This document shows positions 3,001 through 30,476 of a stretch of 30,476 nt of DNA, in pieces. Made by a program: the position numbers and the translations under genes. The DNA is from a virus. The notes under the pieces are model-generated. The model ran no database searches. It was given only the letters and a program-made list of their open reading frames with translations, and was not told where the DNA came from. The stretch covers positions 1 to 30,476 of IMG/VR virus record IMGVR_UViG_3300036980_000283. One strand, given 5' to 3'. Positions within the stretch are counted from its first letter, which is position 1, and each line of letters opens with the position of its first letter.

Positions 3001-6000
3001 GTCCTGATTCGTGTGGCCGGGTTGCAGGAGCGCTTCCGGAACCGTCCTGGCGATTGCTGAAAGCCCGTTCTTCAGCGCGGTTGGGGATTTCACCTGATCG
3101 TTCAGGCGTTCCTCTGCAACCCCGAGCCTCGCTCGCCACTGCGCCTGAAGGTTCGCAGATGCCGGCGATGTCGCATTCAAATCAACGAGGTAATCCTTGT
3201 AGTCCGAAGTCAGGTTGTCCAGGACCGCCTGAAGATAGTTCGCCTTGTGCTGGGCCTGGGTAGTCTTTGCAGTCTTCGCAACCGCGGCATTCAGCTCGGC
3301 TTGGAGCGCGGTGATGTTTTGATCCATCTTGTCTCCGGCCTCCCTGTCCAGAGCGTGATGGGAAAGCTGCATCGCGCCGGCCAGCTCCTTGGTCCGCTCC
3401 TCTTCCGTGGTCCCTTCCGGGAGCGAGGATAGCGGGCGCGGCGTCGGGCTCAGGAATGCCCGGTCCAGAAGGTGTTCCAGGATGCCTTGGGCTCGCTTCT
3501 CAACTTTGTTGGCTGCGGCCCCCATCAGCCATCCGGTCATCCCCTGGGTGACCATGCTGCCCTGCACTGCGGCGAGATCCTGCGCTTCCTGAATCTGGGA
3601 CGTGGTCAGGCCGGGATTCGAAGCGGCCGCCTCAACCTTTTTACGGGACGGGAAGAACGCCGCGGAGGGTTCCCTCGGGTTGATCGCGAAGCGGGTTCCG
3701 CCGGGCTGGGTATTTGGGTTGGCTTCCTTAACGTAATATCCAAATGGACGCGTTACGTCTGCTGGAAATCGCTTAAACTCAGAAGGTAATTCAGGTAACG
3801 GCTGGCCGATGATTTCCGGTTCACCATTCAATCTAAGCGCGTCTGCTTCTTTTTTGGTTACGAACCTTCCCGTGTTAGTAATCCATCCATGCTGAAACTC
3901 AACATTGCTGTCTGGTGTGTGGCCAGCCGGTTCAAACAGTTGCATGTGAGAAACGCCTCGGCCCGCAGCAATGACTCCGGTTTCAGGATTCCTAACAGCG
4001 ACCAACCGTATGGATTCCTCCGGATTGATCGCGAAGCTGGTGCCGCCCATAGCCTCCTGCATCGGAACCGGCTGACCGTTCTCGTGCGTGATGGCGATGT
4101 CGGAATCGTTGAAAATTACGAAGTTGTAGGTGGCCTTCTCTGCCATCTTGTCCAGTTCCGCCTGCGCGGCCGCCACATCCTTAAAACCTGTCACCGGATG
4201 GTCGGGGAACGCCAAGTAGGCTTCTTCTCCGGTGCCTTTTTTGACTATGAAGGCCCGCTTACTGTTGACGAACCCGGAAGGAACAGGCTTCCCAAGTCTG
4301 CGCTGCATCTCCTGAATGCTCACCACCTCGAAGTCCGAGCGCACCGGAGCGTACCTGCTGAACTGGTCCAGGTACTTGATGCCCTTGATGCCTAGATCGT
4401 TAAGGAATTCAGATGCGGCGGCGGGATAGCCGGCCAGCATTCTTTTGACTGTCTTGTAGATCGTTTGACCGGACCCGTTCTCGTTCTCCAGCCTCGCTAT
4501 CGACCCAGGTGCTCCAAGTGGGATGCGTGCGTTCCACTTTCGGGTTACTTCGATTTCGTTCGTTAATGAAGACAGGGCGCTCTTTACAAAATCGCTCTGC
4601 TCATTGAACGGCTTGTCCCAGTCCAGAAACTCGGACGGATCTGCTTCGATAGATACTGTGTATTCGTTGCCGCGAGATACGGATGTGACTTTTTTTCCTC
4701 GTAATTGCTTTGCGAAATCAGCGGCGGCTCGAAACGCTTCCATTTCGTAATCTTCAACAAACCTGCCATTCGCCTGCTGCTCTAGCGCACGAACGGCCTC
4801 GTCCACGTTTCCATTGGCAAGCACAACGGCCCATGCCCCGAACGCTCTGGGGTTGCTAGTTGGATCTTGAACAACCGGAAGGTCCGGCCGCCTGACACCG
4901 TCTATTTCAAGATCGACGCCACCGCTAAGTCTATTCGCATATTCTTTCGCAACCTCTCGCGCCTGCGCAAAATACAGACCCCACCCGTAAACCTGAGATC
5001 CCTCTCCGGTTCCAACTTTCTCCAATGAGAACCGGTCAACCTTGTGCGGAGTTCCGTGGTGCGCCTCAATTGCAAACATCGCCGGCCCAATCACGGTGGC
5101 GTTCTTCGCGCGCAACACCTGTCCTCCGGACTCAAGGAAGTAGCGCGAGCGTCCGATGACATTTGACTGCTCGGCCTGCGATGCGCTCACCGCGCGCCGC
5201 CCACGCTTCAGCAACACCTGAACATCATTGTCGGACACCTGAAGATTGAAGACGCGCCTCACCCAGTTCCTGACGGCCGCAACAATCTGCTGCCACAGCG
5301 TCGGGTCCACTTCGGGATTCTCAGCAAGCTTTGCGACGATTTCCTTTCCAACGGTGACGGGATCAACTCCGTAGAGGTCGCGGACCTGTTTCCCGAGATC
5401 GGTTGACGCATGGCGATCCGCAACGCCCTGCATGAACTTCGAGAAATCCCCCTGGTTCCCAAACATCGCCTCGACTCCGATGTGCCCGACGGACTCATGC
5501 AGCAGGAGCCTGCGCGCGCGCTCTTCATGCGTGATGTTGCCGGCCACCATCCACACATTCCCACCATCGGCAACGGCGGCCACCCGGTTAAGCCCGAGGC
5601 CCACGGCGCGCTGCTTGATGTGGGCGGGCAACTGGTCCACAGAATCAACGACATTAACGGTCGGTGCGTTGGCCCATCCAGCGGTTATTCCGGAGACGAT
5701 TTGCTGAATGCGCGGTGAAGGAATTGACGGCTGCGCGGCTGCGGGTCCGATCTCCTGCCAGCCGATGGGGGTTTCAGCAATCGAAGCGGCTTGCGCTGGC
5801 AACGCCGGGGATGCGATAACCGCGGCACCCGGAGCAGCCTGCGTCGCCTGCCACTCTTCGAATGTCGGAATCGTTTCGGGCACCGTGTAGCCCTTGGCTC
5901 GCGCATCTTCCGCAGAGACGTTCCTGAGAATTCCTGGACGCGCCCCCGGAATCTGAAACGTAGGGCGGTCAGCCATCCCGAATTGATACCCAGCGAATGC

Positions 6001-28946: not shown

Positions 28947-29254
28947 ATATAAAAACCATACCTGCGTTCCCAGTTGCATTCGTTCAGGGATCGGATCCCG
29001 CCGGAGCAGATGTAGAGCCCGGCGAGCGCGGGATGAGCCTTCATCAATACTACGTGGGCCAGGCCCTTGCTGGGCTTTCCGGGACGATGGAATTTTTACT
29101 GGCCGCCCTCAACGACGCGAAGGCAATCGAAAAAGCGACGATCCAGGAGCTCATCGCCAAGGCCGCCGTTCGCGTTGCGGATGCCACAATTGCCGAGCTT
29201 GAGGGGCGCATCGACAAAACAAACTCCGACTTGACACCCACGAGCGGGAAGTGA
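28943..29254 (+). CDS. Small conserved phage protein
   Basis: 103 residues from ATG at 28943, overlapping the exonuclease stop as ATGA. The central part PGERGMSLHQYYVGQALAGL is the pattern of a widespread small phage/prophage protein (GM-x-LR-x-Y-x-A-x-x-A) recalled from many genomes without an established function. The C-terminal half is a helix (ATIQELIAKAAVRVADATIA). The -35 of a candidate promoter for the next gene lies within its last codons. Confidence 0.75.
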   Translation: MNIKTIPAFPVAFVQGSDPAGADVEPGERGMSLHQYYVGQALAGLSGTMEFLLAALNDAKAIEKATIQELIAKAAVRVADATIAELEGRIDKTNSDLTPTSGK

Positions 29255-29260
29255 TTTAGT
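29231..29260 (+). promoter_or_regulatory. Sigma70-like promoter
   Basis: A perfect TTGACA (29231-29236) is followed after 18 nt by TTTAGT (29255-29260, 4/6 to consensus). Transcription would start near 29267, about 145 nt before the ATG of the ParB-like gene, so the structured element at 29301-29410 would form the leader. This is the best sigma70-type promoter noticed in the window. Confidence 0.6.
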
Positions 29261-29300
29261 AAACGCACGGCACCTGAAAGCGCCACCTGACATGAATCGT

Positions 29301-29410
29301 GTTTCATCTCTGAACTCACCAGTCTGCGCCCGTCGGCTTTACGGCCGTGCGAGTTGTCTGTCCTCGCCTTTTCAGGGCGGGCGTCGGACTGGTGAACTCA
29401 CGGATGAAAT
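29301..29410 (+). ncRNA. Candidate structured RNA / 5' leader with three-way junction
   Basis: Nested helices can be drawn by eye: 29302-29308 with 29403-29409 (7 bp); 29316-29324 with 29387-29395 (9 bp); 29327-29332 with 29378-29383 (6 bp); then two hairpins, 29334-29337 with 29344-29347 (4 bp) and 29349-29353 with 29363-29367 (5 bp), for 31 pairs in all. The outer helix ends one base before the ATG of the ParB-like gene, so it could control translation. TGAACTCAC also occurs as a direct repeat (29311 and 29393). It lies downstream of a candidate promoter. The known class, if any, is not recognised; a DNA-level role such as a protein binding site is also possible. Confidence 0.6.
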
Positions 29411-30295
29411 ATGAAGGACTACGAAAACCACCCACTGTCAGAACTGTTCCCGATTATCTCGGCGGCGGAAATCAAAGACTTGGCCGAGGACATCAAAGAA
29501 CGAGGACTCCAATCGCCCATCGTCCTCTACGAAGGAAAAATTCTCGACGGTCGCCACCGATACGAGGGGTGCAGTCAGGCGGGAGTAACGCCAAAGTTCG
29601 AGACTTACGACGGCGACGATCCGGTAGGGTTTGTTTTTTCAGCAAATCTTCGGCGGCGACATTTAACCGACGGTCAGCGGGCCATGATCGCGGCAAGGCT
29701 GGCAACAATGACGCATGGCGGGGACCGAAAAAGCGAAGGCAGAAATCAAGTGGCGAATTTGCCGCTTGATCAAGAGAAGGCCGCAGAAACATTGGATGTT
29801 TCGCCGCGCTCCGTGCGCGTGGCCAAGACGGTTATGGACGCTTCTCCGAAGCTCACGAAGCAAGTCGATGCCGGGAAACTTTCCCTCAACGCCGCGCACC
29901 AGCAGGTCAAGGCGAAGGAGAAAGCGAATGGCGAGCCCGTCCTCGACGATACCGACTTCGAGATCCCGCCTGGTCGCGTTGAGATTTGGGCGCGCCGCGG
30001 AGAGGTCCGCGACATCGCAAATCAAATTGCGAACATCCAGAACAGGCTCATCGCCTACCAGGAGGCGAAGGACGAATTGTTCTCCGGCGTAAGCGTGGCG
30101 TCGGTCGTGGAGCGTCTGCGCTACGTTTCCCAGCAACTTCGTGGCGTTCAGCTTCATGCCGTGTGCCCGTCCTGCGGGGGCCGAAACTACAAGAACTGCA
30201 CGGACTGCAAGGGGCGCGGGTTCCTTTCCAAGTTCGCGTGGGAGCGGGTGCCCGATTCGATTAAGGAAGTTCGGTCTAAGGCATCCAAAAAATGA
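29411..30295 (+). CDS. ParB-like nuclease-domain protein with C-terminal zinc finger
   Basis: 294 residues from ATG at 29411. The N-terminal ParB/sulfiredoxin-like domain covers about 5-95, with LSELFPIISAAEIKDLAEDI, then GKILDGRHRYEGC (the GxxR phosphate/nucleotide motif) and ANLRRRHLTDGQRAMIAARL. HGGDRKSEGRNQVANLPLDQ and a helix-turn-helix-like AAETLDVSPRSVRVAK follow. A short helical part leads to a DnaJ-like CxxC pair: C252-x2-C255 and C263-x2-C266 with G268 and G270. ParB-domain proteins bind DNA and CTP or act as nucleases; which applies here is unknown. The segment reading NQVANLPLD is coded by a near-palindrome shared with the giant gene. ATGA overlap with the helicase suggests a role in replication or DNA handling. 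Confidence 0.85.
   Translation: MKDYENHPLSELFPIISAAEIKDLAEDIKERGLQSPIVLYEGKILDGRHRYEGCSQAGVTPKFETYDGDDPVGFVFSANLRRRHLTDGQRAMIAARLATMTHGGDRKSEGRNQVANLPLDQEKAAETLDVSPRSVRVAKTVMDASPKLTKQVDAGKLSLNAAHQQVKAKEKANGEPVLDDTDFEIPPGRVEIWARRGEVRDIANQIANIQNRLIAYQEAKDELFSGVSVASVVERLRYVSQQLRGVQLHAVCPSCGGRNYKNCTDCKGRGFLSKFAWERVPDSIKEVRSKASKK
29745..29771. repeat. 27-bp near-palindromic repeat, copy 2 (inside ParB-like gene)
   Basis: 26/27 identical to 6010-6036, differing at 29755 (G instead of A). It encodes about residues 112-121 of the ParB-like protein, just before its helix-turn-helix-like segment. Because the element is nearly symmetric, both strands read Q-x-ANLPLD. Confidence 0.8.
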
Positions 30296-30476
30296 TTCTT
30301 CGAGATTACCAGAACGGCGCTTCGGATGCAACCTTCGAAGAGTGGAAGGACCATACGTCCACGCTCATCGTCATGCCCACCGGCACGGGCAAAACACAGG
30401 TTTTTGCGGACATTATTCGAAGGACGCTTCCGAAGCGGGCGATGGTCTTAGTCCACCGCGAAGAGCTGGCCTTTCA
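30292..30476 (+). CDS. SF2 DEAD/DEAH-type helicase, N-terminal fragment (3' partial)
   Basis: ATG at 30292 overlaps the ParB-like gene stop as ATGA, and the frame runs open to the right edge, giving 61 residues. LRDYQNGASDATFEEW near the start is the Q-tip/RecG-UvsW-like entry of superfamily 2 helicases; LIVMPTGTGKTQVFADII contains Walker A (motif I), and AMVLVHREELAF is motif Ia. It is probably a phage replication or recombination helicase acting on branched DNA. Later motifs lie outside the window, so its subtype cannot be set. Confidence 0.85.
   Translation, partial: MILRDYQNGASDATFEEWKDHTSTLIVMPTGTGKTQVFADIIRRTLPKRAMVLVHREELAF

Follow-up and report, generated by a model that had tools for sequence, protein, structure and literature searches.

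The mRNA leader of phage T4 gene 32 carries a pseudoknot that serves translational autoregulation. Transcription attenuators with antiterminator arms close to the 5' end constitute a general class. Theta (HDV-like) ribozymes of gut phages have been reported from a tRNA-linked context (PMC10879173). A search of the literature found nothing on the leaders or the control of ParB-like phage genes, which are often fused to DNA methyltransferases or sited before a helicase. Here we describe a structured leader ahead of one such gene; most likely it is an RNA element of control, familiar in its general type but unusual in design.

The window, that is, the whole stretch analysed, is the 30,476-base IMG/VR virus fragment IMGVR_UViG_3300036980_000283, which carries phage genes for RecT, exonuclease VIII, terminase, a ParB-like protein and a helicase. 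RecT, a pyrophosphatase-like gene and exonuclease VIII are followed by the gene for a 103-aa protein, the leader, the ParB-like gene and a ResIII helicase. The ParB-like gene (29411-30295, + strand; PHROG ParB-like) encodes 294 aa with a C-terminal CxxCxG...CxxCxG knuckle, and its profile matches the solved ParB chains 7bnr/7bnk with an E value of 0.0025; the start of the ResIII/DEAD helicase (30292-30476, + strand; Pfam PF04851) is cut at the window end. The leader element occurs as a single copy in the virus record and, with one copy only, the possibility that it is a mobile element was rejected. A DNA similarity search of the leader against phage and plasmid records showed no relative, and the exact 14-mer GACTGGTGAACTCA found only chance matches in viral contigs.

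Closely related leaders were not found; distant relatives of the ParB-like gene were. These comprise 21 from bacterial genomes and 80 kept of 101 from viral contigs, plus a second set. Three of them (L128, a Pyrinomonadaceae MAG, and the phage contigs L177 and L227) have the C-terminal Cys knuckle in common and share 41%, 30% and 32% full-length identity with the window protein, respectively; L177 and L227 are 68% identical to each other. In L128 and L177 the gene order is also retained: an annealing-protein and/or exonuclease module, the leader, the gene and a ResIII helicase. A search for prophage relatives in Acidobacteriota added none that is full-length and carries the Cys knuckle.

The leader is preceded by TTGACA at 29231-29236 and, with an 18-nt spacer, by an extended -10 element, TGa-TTTAGT, at 29252-29260 (both + strand; a 4/6 match with an extended TGn). 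The original prediction, made from the letters of the window, had named a perfect TTGACA and a 4/6 -10 ahead of the element, and both are there to be read. We treat the pair as a putative promoter, from which the window transcript is predicted to start near 29264-29267.

Folding of positions 29261-29431 (171 nt), which include a long branched hairpin at 29300-29410 of the + strand, gave -70.9 kcal/mol, compared to -50.5 +/- 4.05 in dinucleotide shuffles (z -5.0); none of 200 such shuffles was equally good, and for the 130 nt upstream of the ATG z falls to -6.3. The outermost helix (7 bp, TTTCATC/GATGAAA, 29302-29308 with 29403-29409) occludes the region of the start codon. Inside it lie the main helix C of 11 bp (29316-29326 with 29385-29395), an inner helix of 8 bp (29327-29334 with 29376-29383) and, in the MFE structure, two small hairpins (29335-29346 and 29347-29368). 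These are the helices that had been described beforehand, with slightly more than the 31 pairs then counted, and the outermost one does end one base ahead of the ATG at 29411. That no known RNA class is recognisable also held: a covariance search of the element against Rfam 15 gave no hits at gathering and chance hits only (E 2.7 and 5). The further claim that nothing comparable exists in the window stands after GC correction, where a sliding fold gives the leader the largest residual (-4.5 sd), but fails in absolute energy, since a few GC-rich coding stretches (around 20350) equal its fold depth. The structured leader of the window is real and well formed, and its hairpin is firm.

The start of the ParB-like gene is deeply buried in this structure. 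Opening the start region would cost 23 kcal/mol, the highest value among 20 starts tested in the window, and the start site is occluded in the default fold, as expected of a translational riboregulator. In the relatives the start costs only 6.6-12.5 kcal/mol to open and the start codon is left open, from which we conclude that burial of the start is peculiar to the window phage.

A second pairing involves the expected 5' end of the transcript. The 5' arm A1 (CGCACGGC, 29264-29271, + strand) lies at the expected transcript start and is the perfect complement of A2 (GCCGTGCG, 29344-29351, + strand), within the hairpin. With the hairpin fixed, this 8-bp pairing alone has a p of about 0.07 against shuffles, and the 5'-end pairing of L128 one of about 0.15; taken jointly, the interlocked two-helix layout has p 0.01 for the window and for L128. 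Combining the 5'-end pairings of the window, L128 and L177 gives p 5e-4, mainly due to L177. The A1/A2 form competes, at almost the same energy, with the two small MFE hairpins (-69.0, before a pseudoknot penalty, versus -67.8). Just before A2 a 3-bp hairpin, CGU-CGGCUUU-ACG (29331-29343, + strand), may form as an alternative to the MFE hairpin; it resembles, by eye only, CGA-UGGUUUU-UCG in L177 and CGA-UGGCUCUU-UCG in L227. A pseudoknot in the window is plausible.

Leaders of ParB-like genes elsewhere offer a comparison. Strongly folded leaders (z < -2) precede 17 of 45 ParB-like genes that have an intergenic leader, compared to 59 of 378 intergenic leaders of other genes (p 7.5e-4, with related sequences kept in), while most ParB-like genes are without such a leader (median z -0.26, n=103). 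The gene is preceded in L128, L177 and L227 by a promoter-like TTGACx sequence and an extensive hairpin; in these distant relatives it is the layout that is kept, not the sequence. A TTGACx-17/18-TATAAT-like pair precedes the leaders of L128 (with a weak -10), L177, L227, L157, L161 and L209. The transcripts of L177 and L227 would begin with bases (CUCCUGCCCGG) that pair over 13-14 bp with part of the hairpin loop, and the two helices interlock. A detector of interlocked helices, applied to 104 leaders, also found L157 (14 + 15 bp), L161 (13 + 11) and L209 (10 + 8). In these three, the interlocked helices lie beyond 100 shuffles. The interlocked pseudoknot is seen, far beyond shuffles, in four lineages (L177/L227, L157, L161 and L209), each time behind a strong promoter and with 10-14 bp formed by the 5' arm; for this pairing p is 0.0015 or less in L177, L227, L157 and L161, and 0.013 or less in L209. 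The arm begins 4-8 nt past the -10 in all five strong cases and is therefore likely to form the extreme 5' terminus of the RNA. The window has the layout in question (promoter; 5' arm no more than 12 nt from the -10, pairing into the next hairpin; ParB-like gene), with a score of 50. Among interlocked pairings downstream of promoter-like sequences, 15 genuine regions, of which about 11 are distinct, and no shuffled one reach a score of at least 48.

Between L177 and L227, helix C has changed from A-U to C-G on both sides (TGCCGACCC/GGGTCGGCA versus TGCCGCCCC/GGGGCGGCG), a compensatory change, with an additional wobble-compatible change. A covariance model built from these two leaders (R1) gave no match in the window or in L128, and thus lends no support to descent of the leaders from a common ancestor. 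A search with the pattern CTCCTGCCCGG...CCGGGCAGG recovered only L177 and L227 as ParB leaders, and its other matches look like chance; one of these, L265, has a second interlocked helix, but before a different gene and without a promoter. Among the promoter-linked interlocked matches that do not precede ParB-like genes, L225, L207 and L357 were rejected as coding sequence or palindromic operators.

Some further structures came to light in these searches. In L143, a Dehalococcoidia MAG, a strong structure (about 4330-4526, minus strand) follows a TTGACA/TAAAAT promoter and precedes a small lipoprotein-like gene; it combines a 15-bp end-pairing, a 12-bp nested hairpin and a 9-bp interlocked helix. 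About 130 bases upstream of the ParB-like start in L369 are three alternating copies of GCTGGCTC/GAGCCAGC, which could fold into alternative hairpins in the manner of a classic attenuator. Ahead of a ParB-methyltransferase gene in L156, positions 1-110 form a hairpin of 24 bp (z about -6); it departs from a perfect repeat at four places, each of them a G-U pair, and the contig start is too near for a view of any promoter.

On the basis of these comparisons we propose, with a probability of about 0.5, that the leader would act as a cis-acting structured 5' untranslated RNA, a brake on the ParB-like/helicase mRNA, which would be transcribed from a promoter of its own. This reading of the sequence draws on the fold compared to shuffles, the 23 kcal/mol burial of the start, and the promoter and hairpin of the syntenic relatives; it draws also on the enrichment among ParB-like leaders, the interlocked pairings after promoters, the changes in helix C between L177 and L227, and the U-runs behind the hairpin of L161, L209 and L309. 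Several unrelated phages carry a similarly built, differently sequenced hairpin at this place, which makes an RNA switch or lock on the gene the probable role of the leader. Of the three options left by the original prediction (a riboregulator of the ParB-like gene, a free phage RNA, or a DNA site such as an origin or ParB target), the first has the strongest support: the leader is placed behind a promoter of its own and ahead of the gene, a promoter plus a large hairpin occupies this place in syntenic relatives too, and several relatives carry an RNA-type terminator tail or an interlocked 5'-end pairing. Against a brake or lock stand the pairing p values of the window and L128 given above, a weak -10 in the window that a strict consensus promoter scan did not call, burial of the ribosome binding site in the window phage only, the failure of the L177/L227 covariance model to match the window and L128, and the majority of ParB-like genes, which have no such leader.

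If the leader is a brake, then ribosomes would rarely load, because the start codon and its surroundings are buried in the hairpin, unless this were opened or refolded. The pairing of 29264-29271 with 29344-29351, replacing the two inner hairpins, could be the refolded or locked form. Candidate triggers would be RNase III, phage timing, a ribosome on a small overlapping ORF, and the ParB-like protein; for the last of these, autoregulation is an attractive guess. In the relatives the interlocked design would either end in a terminator (L161, L209, L309) or lock the 5' end (L177, L227, L157). Given this shared design, the common principle would be a self-locking leader, with an output (translation, termination or mRNA stability) that would differ among phages. 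A wider suggestion, which we make tentatively and consider doubtful, is that regulatory leaders defined by layout rather than sequence have evolved repeatedly before ParB-like phage genes: the hairpin that comes next would take up the first transcribed bases in its loop and lock the mRNA 5' end; the lock of the window would also cover the start codon.

The two main alternatives are attenuation and a DNA site. In the first, the 5' arm and hairpin would decide whether RNA polymerase stops before the gene. The hairpin of the relatives would then serve as an intrinsic terminator, and the 5' end of the transcript would pair with its loop, as antiterminator or pseudoknot. A terminator-like U-run directly follows the hairpin in L161 (T7), L209 (T5) and L309 (T6), and one is present also in L204; in the first three it points to RNA. 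In L124 (MW202426, about 3060-3160) a promoter-like TTGGAG/TAAAAT has a hairpin with T7 in the next 70 bases, and the ParB-like gene comes directly thereafter, so that promoter and terminator stand right before it. The window and L128, however, have no U-run after the hairpin (C2 of the window is followed by ACTCACGGATGAAA), a terminator scan of the window's + strand found none, and the sole candidate, a 5-bp GCGAG/CTCGC stem with CTTTT, lies inside the element. Attenuation fits several relatives; for the window we consider it unlikely.

The nested inverted repeats might instead be operators, or a partition-like site, at which the ParB-like protein represses its own gene, the RNA fold being a by-product. 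The ParB-like nature of the encoded protein is in keeping with this, as are palindromes in L230 (about 2822-2915): TTAGCARYTGCTAA covers the promoter and recurs about 75 bases further downstream, with a small terminator between the two sites, ahead of a ParB-methyltransferase gene. This looks like a pair of autorepression operators. L177 has a third exact copy of its helix C strand, GGGTCGGCA, at about 3834-3842, just upstream of the promoter. Such upstream third copies are not significant save in L177 (that of L227 is weak), and the idea of a looping operator was set aside since it is clearly significant there only. The arms of the window are not themselves palindromic, and the U-runs, the alignment of A1 with +1 and the internal G-U pairs fit RNA better. 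A DNA site is rather improbable, and an origin of replication is unsupported.

A possible 40-codon leader ORF (29292-29414, + strand) spans the hairpin, and its TGA overlaps the ParB-like ATG (ATGA). Its translation could open the hairpin and pass ribosomes to the ParB-like start, and L209 has a similar frame of 32 codons ending at the same place. The ORF has no clear ribosome site, its own start would cost 16 kcal/mol to open, a Pfam search gave no match, and it is absent from L177, L227, L157 and L161; coupling of this kind is quite unlikely. Very unlikely is a free small RNA, made from the promoter to act in trans, in which case the gene would depend on read-through: the terminator-ended versions of the relatives would release an RNA of 90-110 nt, but the window has no terminator and its structure reaches into the start codon. 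It is highly improbable that the leader is a chance or decaying inverted repeat without function; no close homologous leader is at hand to show conservation, but the z of -5 to -6 and the recurrence in syntenic relatives speak against it. A self-cleaving HDV-like ribozyme is extremely unlikely: the strand order, P1-P2-(P3)-P1'-P2', is that of HDV, and a P3-like hairpin (3 bp, 7-nt loop), judged by eye, precedes A2 in the window and L177, is seen in L227 and is absent in L157, but arm A has 8 bp in the window and 8-14 bp in relatives compared to a P1 of 7 bp, A1 and C1 lie 8-44 nt apart (44 nt in the window), the A2-C2 gap is 0 in L161, a short J1/2 with room for a J4/2 bearing the catalytic C was not found, Rfam gave no match of such kind even at E 10, and there is nothing to cleave off because the transcript starts at arm A. 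Gaps, helix lengths and position all misfit a ribozyme, which is unsupported, as is a known riboswitch.

A class of leaders set by topology and position rather than sequence would escape searches of the Rfam type and, if the 5'-end lock is true, it would provide a simple, ligand-free tuning of mRNA stability, termination or translation. With theta ribozymes the leader would share an interlocked pseudoknot in a phage genome and the same strand order (PMC10879173), whereas the length of P1, the lengths of the joining segments and the placing with respect to the start of the transcript disagree. In common with attenuators it has a promoter, a leader of 90-145 nt and alternative pairings, to which relatives add an intrinsic terminator ahead of the gene; it differs in that no U-run follows the window hairpin. 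The L177/L227, L157, L161 and L209 leaders likewise combine a promoter, a 5' arm at +1, a hairpin loop that pairs back to the 5' end and a ParB-like gene, but show no sequence similarity to the window, a stronger 5'-end pairing and an open start codon. Compared to T4 gene 32, where the pseudoknot is small and apart from the ribosome site, the 110-nt hairpin of the window reaches the start codon, and binding by the gene product is only hypothetical; what the two have in common is a phage gene of DNA metabolism, controlled at translation, whose leader opens with a pseudoknot; in the window both the pseudoknot and the control are proposed.
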